A stretch of DNA of 53,067 bases from Mycobacterium sp. Marseille-P9652. Its GTDB lineage: Bacteria > Actinomycetota > Actinomycetes > Mycobacteriales > Mycobacteriaceae. Shown here one piece after another: positions 7,296-49,968 of this stretch; positions within the stretch are counted from its first letter, which is position 1, and the number at the start of each line of letters is the position of its first letter. Under the pieces are notes generated by a model. That model ran no database searches. It saw only the letters and a list, made by a program, of their open reading frames with translations, and was not told where the DNA came from. The translations under genes were made by a program, and so were the position numbers. The stretch is from NCBI RefSeq assembly GCF_902652685.1, contig NZ_CACRUY010000037.1, forward strand, positions 1 through 53,067, given 5' to 3'.

Positions 7296-8240
7296 TCAGT
7301 TCGTGCGCCGCTGCGCGGACACGAAAAGCGTTGGCGGCATGGAGTCCTCGGAGCCGGCCGGCATCTCGCGCGCATAACGCGCCATCAGCTCCGGGAAGGT
7401 CTGAGCGGACACATCCCAGCCATGCTCGCGCAGCCACGCGTCGACGGGCGTGCGTTCCTCGGCATACCAGAGGTCGTCGAAGTCCGTGATCTCGGCGTCG
7501 ACCAGCCTGGCCGCCGCGGCCCGCATCCGCCGCATGTCGTCGCGTTGCCGCCGGACCAGCTCCGGGTCGGTGAAGCCCGCGCCGGGTACGTTCGAGGCCA
7601 GCCAACTGCCGGGCGCGCTCAGCGCGTGGATGCGTTCGAACAACAGGTCCTGTGCCTGTGCCGGCAGATAGCGGACCAGGCCCTCGGCCGACCAGGCCGC
7701 CGGTTTTGAAGGGTCAAACCCCGCCTCCCGCAACGCCTTCGGCCAGTCCTGTCGGAGGTCTATCGGGACGTTTACCAGGTGAGCCGCCGGTTGCGCGCCG
7801 TGGTCTCGCAGCGTGTGGGTCTTGAACTCCAGCACCTTGGGCTGGTCCAGTTCGTATACGACGGTTCCGTCGGGCCACGGCAGCCGCCACGTCCGGGCGT
7901 CGAGCCCGGACGCCAGGATCACGACCTGCCGCACTCCGGCATCGGCCGCGCCGAGGAAGAACTCGTCGAAGAACGCCGTCCGCGTGGCCATGAAGTCGAT
8001 CATCAGCTGGATGCGCGCGTGCACCTCGGGCTCGAGCTCGATCGCCTTGGCCAACAGGTCGGGCCTGGTGTAGATGCTCCACAGGCCCTCCCCCGCGGCG
8101 TCGACGAAGACCCGCGCGAAGGGGTCGTTGATGAGCGGGTTGTCGCTCTCGGTCTCCGCGGCGCGGGCCGCGGCCACCCCGACGGCGGTGGCGCCCACGC
8201 TTTGAGTGATGTCCCAGGAATCGTTGTCGGTGCGCGGCAT
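7296..8240 (-). CDS. Class I SAM-dependent methyltransferase, TIGR00027 family (Rv3767c type)
   Basis: A 314-residue member of the mycobacterial TIGR00027 methyltransferase family. Family hallmarks are the N-terminal [25 protein letters not shown], the SAM-binding stretch [21 protein letters not shown], the [11 protein letters not shown] motif and [19 protein letters not shown]. Members are assigned as O-methyltransferases by homology; substrates are mostly unknown, and SAM-fold proteins of this family are greatly expanded in mycobacteria. The start at 8240 fits the conserved N-terminus. The gene converges on the GH25-like gene and is divergent from the NTF2-like gene. A 12-bp palindrome lies 17 bases upstream of the start. 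Confidence 0.93.
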
Positions 8241-8256
8241 CGCCCTTGTCCCCTCC

Positions 8257-8268
8257 ACAACTAGTTGT
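8257..8268. promoter_or_regulatory. 12-bp palindrome between divergent genes
   Basis: The perfect palindrome ACAACTAGTTGT lies in the 96-bp gap between the divergent methyltransferase and NTF2-like genes. It has an AACnnGTT core like that of TetR/KstR-type operators, but the outer T and A of the KstR motif are missing. No regulator gene is adjacent. Confidence 0.4.
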
Positions 8269-8336
8269 CCGCACCATTCTTCCAGTCCGGTGCGCCTAGG
8301 CTCTGTCCGGAGACGGTTCGATCGTGAGGAGTGGCG

Positions 8337-8684
8337 ATGGCGCGTTCCCCGCAGGAAGTGTTCGCCCACCATGGGAAGGCGCTGGCGGCGGCCGATTTGG
8401 ACGAGATCGTCGCCGATTACGCGGACGACGCCGTCGTGATCACCCCGGCCGGTGCCGCGCGCGGCCGCGACGGCGTCCGGGGGGCCTTCGCCACGTTGCT
8501 GGCCGACCTCCCCAACGCGCGGTGGAACCTCAAGAACCAGGTGTTCGACCGCGACGTGCTGTTCCTCGAGTGGGCCGCCGATTCGGATCTCAGCCGGGTC
8601 GACGACGGGGTCGACACCTTCGTGTTCCGGGACGGCATGATCTACGCGCAAACCGTCCGCTACACCGCGCGGCCCAAGTCCTGA
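8337..8684 (+). CDS. SnoaL/NTF2-like protein
   Basis: A 115-residue small protein with the cone-shaped NTF2/SnoaL-like fold: N-terminal helices ([31 protein letters not shown]), then alternating beta strands ending in [17 protein letters not shown]. The family includes cyclases, isomerases and ligand-binding proteins; the substrate cannot be inferred. I chose the ATG at 8337 over the GTG at 8331 because gagga sits 6 bases before the ATG and directly abuts the GTG. A TAGGCT hexamer (8297-8302) could be its -10. It ends two bases before the kinase-like gene, so the two form an operon. Confidence 0.85.
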
Positions 8685-8686
8685 CC

Positions 8687-9718
8687 GTGGAGCACGTCGA
8701 TCTCGGCGCCGTCGCCGACTGGATGACCACGCAGGGCCTGGGCGAGGGCCCGCTCGAGGACGTCGCCACCGTCACCGGCGGAACACAGAACGTGATGTTG
8801 CGCTTCACGCGGGCGGGCAGACCCTACGTGTTGCGCCGCGGACCGCGCCACCTGCGGCCCCGGAGCAACAGCGTGATTCTGCGCGAGACGAAAGTGCTTG
8901 CCGCCCTGGCGGGTTCGGACGTACCGCACCCCCACCTGATCGCCACCTGCGACGACGTGAACGTCCTCGGGGATGCGGTCTTCTACCTGATGGAGCCGGT
9001 CGACGGATTCAACGCGGGCGAAAGCCTGCCCCCGCTGCATGCCGGTGACGCCGACGTGCGGTTCCGGATGGGGCTGTCGATGGCCGACGCGCTGGCGAAG
9101 CTCGGCGCCGTCGACCATGTCGCGGTAGGCCTCGCCGACTTCGGCAAACCGGCCGGCTTCCTGGAGCGGCAAGTGCCACGGTGGCTTTCGGAGCTGGATA
9201 CCTACAGCGAATACGAGAACTACCCGGGCCCGCAGATTCCCGGCGTCGACCAGGTGGCGGCCTGGCTCGAGGAGCGGCGGCCGACGAGCTGGAAGCCCGG
9301 CATCATGCACGGCGACTACCACGCCGCCAACGTGATGTTCTCCCGCACCGGGCCCGAGGTGGTCGCCATCGTCGACTGGGAGATGTGCACGATCGGCGAC
9401 CCGTTGCTGGACCTGGGCTGGCTGCTGGCCACGTGGAAACAGCCCGACGGCGCCAGCGTGTTCAGCCATGCGCTCGGCGGCCAGGACGGGTTGGCCGGCA
9501 CCGACGACCTGCTCCGGCAGTACGCGGCCAACACCACCCGCGACCTCACGGACATCACCTGGTACACCGTGCTGGCGTGCTTCAAGCTGGGCATCGTGAT
9601 CGAGGGCACCTTGGCCCGCGCGTGCGCGGGCAAGGCCGAGAAGGCGGTGGGCGACCAACTGCACGCGGCCACGGTCCACCTCTTCGAACGGGCGCTGGCC
9701 CTGATCGACGCGGCCTGA
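8687..9718 (+). CDS. APH-fold phosphotransferase (ACAD10-like kinase domain)
   Basis: A 343-residue protein with the aminoglycoside phosphotransferase / choline kinase fold. The catalytic loop [12 protein letters not shown] has His208-Gly-Asp210, and [20 protein letters not shown] carries the metal-binding Asp230. The N-lobe has VLRRGPRH with the likely ATP-binding basic residue. Proteins of this type are related to the kinase domain of human ACAD10 and are often encoded near acyl-CoA metabolism genes. Some mycobacterial relatives are annotated as FadE36 although they lack an acyl-CoA dehydrogenase domain. The likely role is phosphorylation of a small hydroxylated metabolite; the substrate is unknown. 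The GTG at 8687 follows the preceding stop by two bases. Confidence 0.88.
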
Positions 9719-9761
9719 CGTCCGGCGGCCCGCCGCCCAGCGCGCTCCCAGAAAACGCCGT

Positions 9762-9767
9762 TACCAT
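9762..9767 (+). promoter_or_regulatory. -10 hexamer TACCAT of a likely leaderless transcript
   Basis: TACCAT lies 8 bases before the GTG start at 9776 and fits the mycobacterial TANNNT -10. Transcription would begin at or next to the start codon. No ribosome-binding sequence is present. Confidence 0.5.
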
Positions 9768-9775
9768 CTCCTGTC

Positions 9776-10282
9776 GTGCCGCCCTACCCCGAGGAACCCG
9801 ACTTCTACTCCGAGCCCACGCAGGCCGCGCGCTACGGCGTCTACTACGACAGGGAGCCGGAACCGCCCCAACCTCCGCCGACGCCCTGGTACCGCCGCCC
9901 GGCGGCGCTCGTCGCGGCCGGCGCGATCGGGGTTGTCGTCCTGGGCGCGGCGGCGTTCGGCGTGATCAAGCTCGCGACCGGGTCACCCGCGCCCGCTCCG
10001 GCGGCGACGACCACGACGACGGCACCCACGACGACCGTGACCACGGTGACCACCACGACCCCGCAGCCGACCCGGCATCACGGCGGAGGCGGCGGTGGCG
10101 GCGCGCCGACCCAGACCGTCACGGAGACGGCCCCGCCGCCGAGCACCGACACCCCCACGACGACCGTCCCGCCGAGCACCGACACCCCGACGACGACGGT
10201 GCCACCCAGCACCGAGACCAGCACGGTCACCCAGACCGTGACGGTGCCGCCGCGCTGGGGGGCGTTCCAACCGCGCCCGTAG
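9776..10282 (+). CDS. Single-pass membrane protein with Thr/Pro-rich outer domain
   Basis: A 168-residue protein: a Pro/Tyr/Glu-rich cytoplasmic N-terminus (about 1-39), one transmembrane helix (about 43-66, AALVAAGAIGVVVLGAAAFGVI), then an extended region rich in Thr, Pro and Gly. That region has a seven-glycine run and repeats of PPSTDTPTTTV (two and a half copies). This is a typical layout for a mycobacterial membrane-anchored protein with a cell-wall-spanning, possibly O-mannosylated stalk. I do not recognise a named family. The end GAFQPRP is followed 64 bases later by the next gene. Confidence 0.8.
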   Translation: MPPYPEEPDFYSEPTQAARYGVYYDREPEPPQPPPTPWYRRPAALVAAGAIGVVVLGAAAFGVIKLATGSPAPAPAATTTTTAPTTTVTTVTTTTPQPTRHHGGGGGGGAPTQTVTETAPPPSTDTPTTTVPPSTDTPTTTVPPSTETSTVTQTVTVPPRWGAFQPRP

Positions 10283-10333
10283 CGGCGGCCGGGGAAGTCG
10301 CGCGATACCGACACAATCTGGGCACCGGCCGGT

Positions 10334-10339
10334 TAGCCT
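10334..10339 (+). promoter_or_regulatory. -10 hexamer TAGCCT of a likely leaderless transcript
   Basis: TAGCCT lies 7 bases before the GTG start at 10347, with no ribosome-binding sequence between, which suggests a leaderless mRNA. Confidence 0.5.
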
Positions 10340-10346
10340 CCCACTC

Positions 10347-10967
10347 GTGGAAGTCGGCGATTCGGTCAGGCGCTCACTGGACCATTGGGAACGGCGGGAA
10401 TGGCACCCGGCGATGGTGCACGCATGCAATGCGGTCGACGGGACCGCGAAGCAGCGATATCCGCAGCTGGGCATCGCGAATCGGTTCAAGAGCACCATCC
10501 GCGATGCGCTCGACATCTTCGGCGTCATGGCGGCGCCGAGCGTCGACTTCCAACAGACCCGTTTTCCCATCGCGGTGAAGTCCGACCTGCCCGACGGCCG
10601 CCCCGACATCGCCGACGTCTTGTTCGGCATCTACCGCTGGAACCACGGCCACGAGGACGAACTGCCGAACGGCTACGAGCTGACCCCGCACGGGCCTCGC
10701 CCCTTGGGCTTGCACATCTGGCGCGAGGGCAAGATCCAGCTGCCGGCCGCGTCGGCGATCGGGTTGCTCGCTGTCGCCGTGTTCGCCCCGGAGAACAAGG
10801 GCCAGCAGATCCCCGACGGCTACACGCTCAGCTGGTTCCAGTACGTCTTCCCCATCTGCATCTGGTGGGGCTGGCAGGACCACTTCCGCGAGATCGTCGG
10901 CAGTTCCGAGATAGCCCGGTCGACACTCGACTTCGCCGAGTCGTGGGAGAACTGGACACCGGCCTAG
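10347..10967 (+). CDS. Conserved-looking protein of unknown function
   Basis: A 206-residue soluble protein that I do not recognise by name. It is rich in Trp and His: it begins with a helical segment (SVRRSLDHWERREWHPAMVHACNA) and has a central YRWNHGHEDELP and a hydrophobic later part (AIGLLAVAVF; YVFPICIWWGW). The helical N-terminus with an HACNAVDGTA element, and the Arg...His arrangement in YRWNHGH, loosely resemble HEPN-type proteins. The fold assignment is only a guess. The start is supported by the TAGCCT hexamer 7 bases upstream. The acetyltransferase gene follows 26 bases downstream. Confidence 0.75.
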   Translation: MEVGDSVRRSLDHWERREWHPAMVHACNAVDGTAKQRYPQLGIANRFKSTIRDALDIFGVMAAPSVDFQQTRFPIAVKSDLPDGRPDIADVLFGIYRWNHGHEDELPNGYELTPHGPRPLGLHIWREGKIQLPAASAIGLLAVAVFAPENKGQQIPDGYTLSWFQYVFPICIWWGWQDHFREIVGSSEIARSTLDFAESWENWTPA

Positions 10968-47550: not shown

Positions 47551-47566
47551 TGTGATCTGGATTACA
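47551..47566 (+). promoter_or_regulatory. CRP-like operator palindrome
   Basis: TGTGATCTGGATTACA matches the CRP/Cmr consensus TGTGA-N6-TCACA at nine of ten conserved positions. It lies 21 bases before the ATG of the secreted protein gene, so it probably overlaps or follows the transcription start, which suits repression. The surrounding 47454-47587 region is more AT-rich than the neighbours and has no gene. Confidence 0.6.
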
Positions 47567-47587: not shown

Positions 47588-48082
47588 ATGCGCGCGAAGA
47601 CCTGTTCGGGAGCAATCGCCGCGATGGTGGTTCCGGCTACCACGTTGGGCGTCGCCGCGGCCGGCGCCGAGGGCGGCACGACGGTGGTGCTGGACGCGAA
47701 GCTGCGACGCTGCGACTTCAGCCTGGTGTCGACCGCGGCCTGGCTGCCGGCCACGCCGCTGGGCACCGGATCGGCCGCCATCCACCGCTCGGGGTCGAGC
47801 GCGGTCGCGGAAGTGCATCTGTGGGACGAACCGGAGCCCGGCACGCACTTCGACGTCGGACTGATCCAGGAGCCGCGGTCGGCCGCGGCGACCTGCGGCC
47901 CGGGGGACCCGGGCACGGCCTTCCGCGGCCTGGACACCGACGGTGCGGGCAACGGAACCGTGACCGTTTCCGACACCATTCGGCCCGGCACGACGGGCGT
48001 GTGGGTAATAGTCGAGCGGCCGAATCCCCACTCCCAGAATCCGGGCGAGTTCTACACGTCCGAATTCGTCGCGCCGGTTTAA
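47588..48082 (+). CDS. Secreted protein of unknown function
   Basis: A 164-residue protein with an N-terminal signal peptide (MRAKTCSGAIAAMVVPATTL..., cleavage near residue 27 after AAAGA). The predicted mature domain is beta-rich and contains two cysteines (RRCDFSL and AATCGPG), which may form a disulfide. Segments such as GSAAIHRSGSSAVAEVHLWD and GTVTVSDTIRPGTTGVWVIVERP suggest an immunoglobulin- or lipocalin-like beta fold. I do not recognise the family. A CRP-like site lies directly upstream. Confidence 0.8.
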   Translation: MRAKTCSGAIAAMVVPATTLGVAAAGAEGGTTVVLDAKLRRCDFSLVSTAAWLPATPLGTGSAAIHRSGSSAVAEVHLWDEPEPGTHFDVGLIQEPRSAAATCGPGDPGTAFRGLDTDGAGNGTVTVSDTIRPGTTGVWVIVERPNPHSQNPGEFYTSEFVAPV

Positions 48083-48145
48083 GCCGACGGCGGTATCGGG
48101 GCGCTCATCCGGCGTCCTCATGCCCTTTCCGCTGCCGCCTTCGGT

Positions 48146-48159
48146 TACCCCCGGGGGTA
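48146..48159. promoter_or_regulatory. CsoR-like perfect palindrome
   Basis: TACCCCCGGGGGTA is a perfect 14-bp palindrome in the 189-bp gap before the membrane protein-FHA-CRP operon. It resembles the G-tract operators (TACCC...GGGTA) of CsoR/RicR copper-sensing repressors. No CsoR gene is in the window. Confidence 0.4.
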
Positions 48160-48181
48160 GTCGGGCCGAATGCCCCGCCAG

Positions 48182-48201
48182 ACAGGGACTTCCGTCCCTA
48201 G
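48182..48201 (+). promoter_or_regulatory. DosR-like box
   Basis: The core GGGACTTCCGTCCC (48185-48198) matches the DosR (DevR) consensus GGGACTWWAGTCCC at 12 of 14 positions, with both GGGAC/GTCCC arms intact. Its centre is 80 bases before the ATG at 48272, leaving room for a transcription start about 40 bases downstream and a ~40-base leader. Confidence 0.55.
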
Positions 48202-48271
48202 CTCGGCGCGCGGCCCCGGTGGTCCGATGAGGGAGGTCGACGGCGACCGGCGGGGAGATGGAGGCACGGCA

Positions 48272-48742
48272 ATGAACGCTTCACCGCAGGCGTCACAGAC
48301 CGCTACGCGAATGTTCGCCCGTGTGCTCGGCCCCTTCCTCGTGATCGTCGACGTGACGGCCGTGGCGCGCGCCTCCGACATGCAGACCCTCCTGTCGCAG
48401 TTCGAGGCGAACTCGATGTGGACGTTCGTCACCGGTGCGTTCGTGCTCCTGTTCGGACTGATCGTCGTCGCCGGTCACCCCTACTGGCGGGGCGCCCCGG
48501 CGATCATCGTGTCCGCGCTGGGCTGGATGATCGTGCTGCGCGGCCTCATGCTGGTGGCGTTCCCCCGGGCGTTCGTCTGGGTGGCGGACAGCCTGATCGG
48601 CGCCGAGGCGTGCGGGGTTTCGCTCTGCATCGTCTTCGCCCTCGTCGGGCTGTATCTGACCGTCGTCGGGTGGGCCCCGTTGGCCAACCGGCCGACCACA
48701 TCGGCGACCGGCGCGACGCCGGGCCTCCCCCGGGCCGCGTGA
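48272..48742 (+). CDS. Four-helix membrane protein of unknown function
   Basis: A 156-residue integral membrane protein with four predicted helices: about 14-31 (LGPFLVIVDVTAVA), 47-67 (FVTGAFVLLFGLIVVAG), 73-95 (APAIIVSALGWMIVLRGLMLVAF) and 108-132 (VSLCIVFALVGLYLTVVGW). I do not recognise a named family. The ATG follows ggagatggagg. It is first in a tight group with the FHA and CRP-like genes (gaps of 10 and 19 bases), downstream of a DosR-like box. Confidence 0.8.
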   Translation: MNASPQASQTATRMFARVLGPFLVIVDVTAVARASDMQTLLSQFEANSMWTFVTGAFVLLFGLIVVAGHPYWRGAPAIIVSALGWMIVLRGLMLVAFPRAFVWVADSLIGAEACGVSLCIVFALVGLYLTVVGWAPLANRPTTSATGATPGLPRAA

Positions 48743-48752
48743 TCGGAGCACG

Positions 48753-49184
48753 GTGTCAACCTCACAGCAACCGCTTGCGGCCCGGCAGAGCCATGCCGCG
48801 GACGAGACCACCAGAGAAATATTCGACACCTCGGCGACCGTCGCGGAGGCGGCCGTCGAGGACCTCGGCACGCTGGCCAGCGGCCTCGGCGTGCTCGTCG
48901 TCAAGCGCGGCCCCAATGCGGGAACCAGGTTCCGGCTGGAGCACGCCGTCATGTCCGCGGGCCGGCACCCGGCCAGCGACATCTTTCTCGACGACATCAC
49001 CGTCAGCCGCCGGCACGCCGAATTCCGGAAGGACGACGACAGGTTCCGCGTAGTGGACCTGGGCAGCCTGAACAGCACCTACGTCAACCGCGAACCGGTC
49101 GACTCGGCGGTGCTGGCCAACGGTGACGAGGTCCAGATCGGCAACTTCCGCCTGGTGTTTCTCACGGGCCCGCTGCCGGAATGA
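48753..49184 (+). CDS. GarA-like FHA-domain protein (paralogue)
   Basis: A 143-residue FHA protein very similar to GarA (Rv1827/OdhI). The N-terminal tail carries DETTREIF (Thr19-Thr20), matching the ETTSVF phosphorylation site of GarA apart from one extra residue. The FHA domain (about 46-143) begins LVVKRGPNAGTRF and contains SAGRHPASDIFLDDITVSRRHAEF (Arg71, Ser85, His88) and NSTYVNREPVDSAVLANGDEVQIG (Asn107). GarA binds and inhibits 2-oxoglutarate dehydrogenase and adjusts glutamate enzymes unless phosphorylated by PknG or PknB. This copy sits beside a CRP paralogue. The GTG start lacks a strong RBS. Confidence 0.9.
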   Translation: MSTSQQPLAARQSHAADETTREIFDTSATVAEAAVEDLGTLASGLGVLVVKRGPNAGTRFRLEHAVMSAGRHPASDIFLDDITVSRRHAEFRKDDDRFRVVDLGSLNSTYVNREPVDSAVLANGDEVQIGNFRLVFLTGPLPE

Positions 49185-49203
49185 CGGCGAGGAGGAGGAA
49201 CTC

Positions 49204-49968
49204 ATGAGCGTGATGGCCGACGTCGAGTGTCCGGGAGTCCACCCCGTCCTCGCCGGAACCGGAATCCTGCGGCGGGTCCAACCCGACGACGCCTCCGCGC
49301 TGGTCGGCCGGCTTCGCCAGGCCGAGTTCCCGGCCGGCGAAACCATCTTCACCGAGGGCGAACCGGGCGACCGGATATACGTCGTCGTCACGGGCAGGGT
49401 CAAACTCAGCGTGCGCGGCCCCGGGGGCCGCACCAACCTTCGGGCGATCGTCGGCCCGACGGAAGTGTTCGGTGAGGTGGCCGTCTTCGACCCGGGCCCG
49501 CGCACCTGCAGCGCCACGGCGATCACCGACGTCGTCGCGATGTGGCTTGACCGGGCGACGCTGCGGGACTGGGTGGCGCACCGGCCGGCGTTCGCCGAGC
49601 AGTTGCTGTATGTGCTTTCCCGGCGGCTCCGGGACACCGACGACGATCTGGTCGAGCTGGTGTCCCGGGACGTCGCCGCCCGCGTGGCCCGGCAGCTGCT
49701 GCTGTTGGCCCGACGGTTCGGCGCGGCCGACGGCCGCGGGGTGCGCGTCGCGCACGAGCTCAGTCAGGACGAGATGGCGCAATTGGTCGGGGCGGACCGG
49801 ACCTCGGTCAACAGGGCACTGCGGGGCTTCGCGAGTCGCGGATGGATTGTGGTGGAAGGCAAGGCCGTCCTGATCCTCGACTCCGACGCGCTGACCCGCC
49901 GCGCCGCCGGCCGCGGCCCGGGGGCCCACTCGAGCCGGCGCCGCCGCCCGTTGCGCGCCACCGCGTAG
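49204..49968 (+). CDS. CRP/FNR-family transcription regulator (Cmr paralogue)
   Basis: A 254-residue regulator close to mycobacterial CRP (Rv3676). The cyclic-nucleotide-binding domain (about 14-125) has the phosphate-binding cassette FGEVAVFDPGPRTCSAT (Gly90-Glu91, Arg100-Thr101). A dimer helix follows, then a winged helix-turn-helix (about 185-230) with LSQDEMAQLVGADRTSVNRAL. There is no FeS cysteine set, so it is CRP- rather than FNR-like. In the recognition helix Rv3676 reads RETVNK whereas this one reads RTSVNR. The C-terminus has an extra basic tail (SSRRRRPLRATA). A strong RBS (gaggaggaa) precedes the ATG. Confidence 0.9.
   Translation: MSVMADVECPGVHPVLAGTGILRRVQPDDASALVGRLRQAEFPAGETIFTEGEPGDRIYVVVTGRVKLSVRGPGGRTNLRAIVGPTEVFGEVAVFDPGPRTCSATAITDVVAMWLDRATLRDWVAHRPAFAEQLLYVLSRRLRDTDDDLVELVSRDVAARVARQLLLLARRFGAADGRGVRVAHELSQDEMAQLVGADRTSVNRALRGFASRGWIVVEGKAVLILDSDALTRRAAGRGPGAHSSRRRRPLRATA

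Follow-up and report, generated by a model that had tools for sequence, protein, structure and literature searches.

The mem-garP-crpP operon of Mycobacterium sp. Marseille-P9652 appears to belong to the regulon of the hypoxia regulator DosR (DevR) and encodes, behind a predicted membrane protein, paralogues of the metabolic switch GarA and of the cyclic AMP (cAMP) receptor protein CRP. It is located between embB and a fadE35-like gene on a stretch of 53,067 nucleotides, which is one entire contig of a 5.70-Mb genome in 128 contigs and is called the window below. The three genes are closely packed, as an earlier note on this DNA had claimed: the coordinates leave 10 bases between mem and garP and 19 between garP and crpP, and we infer a single transcription unit. 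The combination of known parts found here is real and uncommon. The sequence gives good support for placing the operon in the DosR regulon, and we hold this assignment with high confidence. With moderate confidence, the best reading of the operon as a whole is that DosR would induce a GarA mostly blind to the protein kinase PknG together with a CRP of altered DNA specificity.

A conserved DosR-type box upstream of mem

The DosR box that the earlier note had placed ahead of the operon was borne out. An exact copy of the DosR core, which we take to be GGGACTTNNGTCCC with 12 fixed positions, lies upstream of mem with 73 bases between it and the start codon. The exact core occurs three times in the whole genome, as compared to none for a reversed-pattern control; allowing one mismatch, 28 matches were obtained versus seven for the control, some of the 28 being one palindromic place counted on both strands. 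Next to the second exact copy are DUF1918 and nitroreductase genes, with dosR and dosS at a distance of about 5 kb. The third copy and one copy with a single mismatch are located in a region with genes for a wax-ester/diacylglycerol acyltransferase, a ribosomal S30AE protein and, as judged by eye, a universal-stress-like protein. Thus, the same genome has the DosR-type site next to dormancy-type genes. Furthermore, it encodes a DosR orthologue (L111:8043-8714; E = 5.7e-114 to the solved DevR structure 3c3w), beside which lies a DosS-like histidine kinase with GAF domains; a universal stress protein gene is found in this region as well.

Conservation of the box was analyzed in relatives. At the embB-fadE35 locus, 50 loci yielded 36 distinct mem promoters including that of the window. 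The core was exact in 21 of them, had at most one mismatch in 22 and at most two mismatches in all 36, whereas shuffled versions of these promoters gave expectations of 0.00, 0.05, and 0.85, respectively. Control promoters were scored in the same way. With up to two mismatches, the core was present in 0/12 promoters of canonical crp (crp1), 1/11 of the third garA gene, 0/11 of other CRP paralogues, 0/35 of fadE35, and 0/30 of upSec, the gene upstream of mem; the garP operon also differs from canonical garA, where 0/13 promoters had the core. None of these six sets contained a core with up to one mismatch. The mem genes at other loci were picked by hand (L114 to L124, comprising second copies of mem and a few others; L123 proved to be the embB locus and is included in the counts for that locus). 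Nine of these 13 promoters had the core with up to two mismatches and seven with up to one, the shuffle expectations being 0.20 and 0.05. The mem family, an uncharacterised membrane-protein group, is therefore mostly tied to the DosR box in the promoters tested. In cassettes without mem, a box with at most one mismatch preceded garP-crpP or crpP alone in six of eight cases; hence, the box is mostly retained while the genes behind it change.

Two alternative explanations of the box were considered. A chance match without function would agree with a rough, uncomputed estimate, by which base composition would give roughly one exact core in each genome. It was rejected as extremely improbable, because all 36 related promoters carried the box against a shuffle expectation below one, and because the box was kept in most loci with changed gene content. 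Alternatively, the box may be real and either serve another regulator of the NarL/LuxR type or be a conserved relic, the genes not being hypoxia genes. The 22 GerE-domain matches in the genome and the outer flanks of the primary box, which fit the 20-base DosR consensus more poorly, point in this direction; however, the same core precedes a dormancy-type gene near dosRS as well as mem genes in other dormancy-like clusters, and the spacing of the two boxes is as at DevR promoters, so that we regard this explanation as improbable.

A candidate second site with two to three mismatches was detected 21-23 bp upstream of the primary box in 14 of the 36 promoters, including that of the window; this count has no shuffle control and is weak alone. 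The remaining 22 promoters had no second site with up to four mismatches at offsets of 18-30. DevR sites are described in PMC3029386 as close, cooperative primary and secondary sites with the proximal one over the -35 region, and the spacing of the candidate second box fits such packed sites. Many relatives have GATAAA, GATACA or TATACA after the box, a candidate -10-like element.

The operon thus resembles the DosR regulon of M. tuberculosis and other mycobacteria in its core box and candidate second box, and its genome has DosR, a DosS-like kinase, and dormancy-type genes with the same site. Conservation of the box, the control promoters, and the DosR encoded by the genome strongly support control by the hypoxia regulator, as claimed in the earlier note.

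Several observations weigh against this reading, those on GarP being given in the next section. The 36 promoters are not 36 independent events, because orthologous promoters share descent. Four of the 13 mem genes at other loci had no site with up to two mismatches; among the eight cassettes without mem, L177 likewise had none, and L146 had a box with two mismatches only. Unlike this operon, the DosR list given for M. avium (PMC11876180, Table 1) names no GarA or CRP paralogue; unnamed hypothetical proteins are included there. Neither PMC11876180 (M. avium) nor PMC10034137 (M. abscessus) contains the words GarA, FHA, or Crp in its main text. A literature search for GarA combined with DosR/DevR or with paralogue, in a collection that leaves subscription journals mostly outside, revealed no DosR-controlled GarA or CRP paralogue in the titles and abstract openings of the matches listed.

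GarP, a GarA-type protein mostly without the PknG site

The earlier note had taken garP for a second copy of garA. This is too simple, since three GarA-type genes are present in the genome: canonical garA, next to a gene that is, by eye, of the MerR type, a third copy, and garP, the latter being 71% identical to canonical garA and 63% to the third copy. An alignment of 54 GarA-type sequences was reduced to 51 rows, of which 33 were garP. In the tree, a branch with 98/93 support separated all 33 garP rows from the rows of canonical garA and of the third copy. Compared with canonical garA, the FHA part of garP was 69-82% identical and the N-terminal arm 18-38%. The best matches of garP among solved structures were GarA entries, the first being 2kfu ('Rv1827 pThr 22'). 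GarP is thus like GarA (Rv1827)/OdhI, the inhibitor of 2-oxoglutarate dehydrogenase, in its FHA part and in the Arg, Ser, and Asn of the phosphothreonine pocket, which were invariant in 33/33 sequences.

GarP differs from GarA/OdhI in the kinase motif. ETTS was found in 0/33 garP, 7/7 canonical garA, and 2/10 third-copy rows. The first Thr of this motif, the PknG site, was gone in 32/33 garP and the second Thr was kept in 33/33; the residues following the motif were altered as well. The garP of the window is the only exception, keeping both threonines (DETTREIF). Threonines were counted in the alignment by eye, because automatic picking of the motif chose a wrong upstream string in eight garP rows (six VTT strings, L028, and L010); a search for [ED]TT gave 2/33, of which one (L141) was at a non-equivalent place downstream. 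With the first Thr absent from 32 of the 33 sequences, garP looks partly uncoupled from PknG. The Ser/Thr-kinase control put forward in the earlier note has accordingly to be revised, although the copy in the window retains both threonines.

GarP may thus be described as a GarA-like inhibitor that would mostly escape PknG and would be dosed by DosR. Its role as an enzyme brake is plausible, with chances that we put at about even. The PknG-blind reading fits the relatives better than the window copy: escape is least certain for the garP of the window, which, having both threonines, may still be phosphorylated.

A different possibility is that DosR controls the operon and GarP is a retargeted FHA protein, which would not act on the 2-oxoglutarate dehydrogenase KGD or on glutamate dehydrogenase and would recognize phosphothreonine in other proteins, possibly in the membrane protein or in a kinase. 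The divergent N-terminal arm agrees with this, as do the replacement of the Gly after the pocket Asn in many garP and a score of 193.8 bits with the NCBIfam model OdhI, which misses the equivalog cut-off of 200 by 6 bits. Three basic OdhI residues contact OdhA according to PMC10415282. When these were mapped onto garP by motif, Lys132 was changed in 33/33, to Asn in 19 and to Arg in 14. In contrast, Arg53 was kept in 32/33 and Arg134 in 33/33, and these residues, together with the well-conserved FHA part and the invariant pocket, argue for the partners of GarA. Retargeting is therefore considered unlikely, if the least unlikely of the alternatives.

GarP could also simply supply more GarA under the usual kinase control, with full switching by the second Thr or an adjacent Ser. 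This would be consistent with the second Thr kept throughout, with both threonines in the window copy, and with the TTT near the start codon in five garP relatives and the TT in one. However, the first Thr is gone in 32/33 sequences, the residues after the motif are changed, and M. smegmatis GarA variants without the PknG site were predominantly unphosphorylated. An ordinary GarA dose thus appears to be a little less likely still than retargeting, and we return to a GarA-like inhibitor mostly blind to PknG.

Other GarA-type genes were found in the course of this comparison. The third copy (G000:C5:82793-83158, L128) adjoins an asparagine-synthase-like gene (by eye); third-copy rows kept ETT in 9/10 cases and had no DosR core with up to one mismatch upstream in 11/11. 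At L114 (G281, 8164-10463), a gene for a DosS-like GAF histidine kinase is followed directly by another GarA-type gene. Two mem genes and a gene for a NiFe-hydrogenase-type small subunit (Pfam Oxidored_q6) also occur in this region, together with genes that look nitroreductase-like and stress-protein-like by eye. L114 is a second, separate link of a GarA paralogue to dormancy-type genes.

CrpP, a CRP paralogue with a changed recognition helix

CrpP shares the domain order of mycobacterial CRP (Rv3676), its matches to cNMP_binding (78.2 bits) and HTH_Crp_2 (53 bits) both being above the Pfam cut-offs. It was described in the earlier note as a second copy of CRP; it is a CRP-family paralogue, but only 53% identical to the canonical CRP of the same genome. 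A set of 38 CRP-type sequences gave 34 alignment rows (L166 and L174 were missed by the trimming pattern, the others were duplicates). One of these rows was a fragment and was omitted from the tree, which comprised 21 crpP, three canonical CRPs, and nine other CRP paralogues. All 21 crpP were located on their own side of a branch with 100/100 support; grouping of crpP with canonical CRP or with the nine other paralogues was hence rejected. M. smegmatis Crp1 and Crp2 have 78% identity and a common site, TGTGA-N6-TCACA, and M. avium has a Crp2 counterpart, as stated in PMC7739888. The identity of crpP to CRP is well below that of this pair; Crp2 and the M. avium protein were not placed by name in the tree.

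The Arg of the cyclic-nucleotide motif was kept in 20/21 crpP, and the C-helix residue after Thr was mostly Asp or Glu, not Asn. The Glu of the recognition helix was present in 12/12 other CRP rows and in 0/21 crpP, which had Val (14), Thr (4), Ala (2) or Ser (1) in its place. The corresponding Glu of E. coli CRP recognizes the second G in TGTGA. Since this residue is replaced, an altered site preference of CrpP is likely, although by a moderate measure only. The cAMP control claimed in the earlier note is supported by half: the nucleotide-binding motif is retained, but the DNA-recognition Glu is changed in every copy. At L146 (G139), where crpP follows embB, the nucleotide-motif Arg is replaced by Gln.

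The membrane protein mem and the distribution of the operon

The 36 mem members could be aligned with 20 invariant columns. An AlphaFold model of mem was all-helical, with a mean pLDDT (predicted local distance difference test) of 82.9, and had six helices, four long and two short. The four-helix membrane protein of the earlier note thus finds its counterpart in the four long helices, but six were modelled, and insertion into the membrane is predicted. Assignment of mem to a known family was not supported, as Pfam and NCBIfam gave just weak, scattered matches to different families; a Foldseek comparison of the model with solved structures gave no match (best E = 0.66). As a guess, mem may be an accessory membrane protein. 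Relatives of mem were also seen on plasmid records (H1-H5), two from Mycolicibacterium and two from Pseudonocardia; a Rhizobium jaguaris plasmid record contains a 41% match to mem without an annotated gene there. In M. aubagnense, a universal stress protein gene is located four genes away from the mem copy.

When named genomes were scanned for exact short patterns of the window's mem protein, 19 relatives were obtained, all Mycobacterium. M. tuberculosis was not among these 19 matches of a scan limited to such patterns, the species not being targeted. The order in the 19 relatives was upSec, mem, a variable part, and fadE35, the variable part consisting of garP and crpP in five, garP only in 13, and neither gene in one. 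Among 396 sampled genomes of the genus, 210 had a match to the mem family, and mem, garP, and crpP were side by side in at least 14 including the window, as determined from coordinates and by reading the loci. The ratio of nonsynonymous to synonymous substitution rates (dN/dS) was 0.09-0.41 in 12 gene pairs, which are not independent; this range suggests purifying selection. At L177 (G046), garP-crpP follows upSec after a short gap.

A possible role in dormancy

The following sequence of events is the one that we favour. Phosphorylated DosR would bind the primary box and activate a single mem-garP-crpP transcript; in this clade, it would probably also bind the weaker box about 22 bp upstream. 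As GarP has a GarA-type FHA domain, it should bind the enzyme partners of GarA and would hold KGD and, by analogy, glutamate dehydrogenase and glutamate synthase. Because the Thr that serves as the PknG off-switch is missing in most garP, hypoxia would add a GarA-like brake that does not await a fall of the nutrient signal. CrpP, having a changed recognition helix and a kept nucleotide motif, probably regulates other sites than CRP, and mem would act as an accessory membrane protein. The dormancy module of GarA and CRP paralogues that the earlier note had envisaged is a fair description of this operon, and it may retune carbon/nitrogen flow as suggested there.

In the most specific form of this reading, DosR of this mycobacterial group would take over the GarA brake on the tricarboxylic acid (TCA) cycle by means of a PknG-blind paralogue, coupled to a CRP paralogue with rewired specificity that may read a variant CRP site before upSec. 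We propose this version tentatively, with somewhat less than an even chance of being right. If true, it would provide a direct link of oxygen sensing by DosR to the GarA-controlled 2-oxoglutarate node and would indicate how the TCA cycle is slowed in dormant mycobacteria at a time when nutrients, and hence PknG signalling, persist. Furthermore, it would mean that DosR regulons acquire spare copies of global regulators.

Neighbouring genes and a CRP-type site

The features of the locus are listed in Table 1. The gene upSec, which precedes mem in 19/19 named loci, gave no Pfam or NCBIfam match in a profile search.

Table 1. Genes and putative regulatory elements at the mem-garP-crpP locus; positions refer to the window
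Feature	Position	Strand	Remarks
CRP-type site	47551-47566	+	TGTGATCTGGATTACA; before upSec; sole match with up to one mismatch in the 53-kb window
upSec	47588-48082	+	small protein with signal-like N terminus (by eye); upstream neighbour, outside the operon
Candidate secondary DosR box	48163-48176	+	22 bp upstream of the primary site; three mismatches
Primary DosR/DevR core box	48185-48198	+	GGGACTTCCGTCCC; 12/12 fixed positions match the core
Candidate -10-like element	48226-48231	+	position inferred from upstream alignments; GATGAG in the window, a poor match
mem	48272-48742	+	predicted membrane protein of 156 amino acids; no convincing Pfam or NCBIfam model
garP	48753-49184	+	GTG start; GarA/OdhI paralogue of 143 amino acids with FHA domain
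crpP	49204-49968	+	CRP-family paralogue of 254 amino acids
fadE35-like gene	starts 49995		next gene downstream of crpP

Between upSec and mem, no CRP-type site with up to three mismatches was found; the nearest one precedes upSec. This site was present with at most two mismatches in 31 of 43 loci and exact in 19, counts that have no shuffle control. Several crpP carriers, the window included, have one half-site TAACA or TTACA in place of TCACA. Such a half-site might suit a CRP without the recognition Glu, which we regard as a lead and not as a result: the crpP carriers L133, L141, L142, L143, L147, and L177 have the exact site, and L083, at whose locus no crpP was found, has a variant site. 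The CRP-type site before upSec is a possible regulatory neighbour of crpP.

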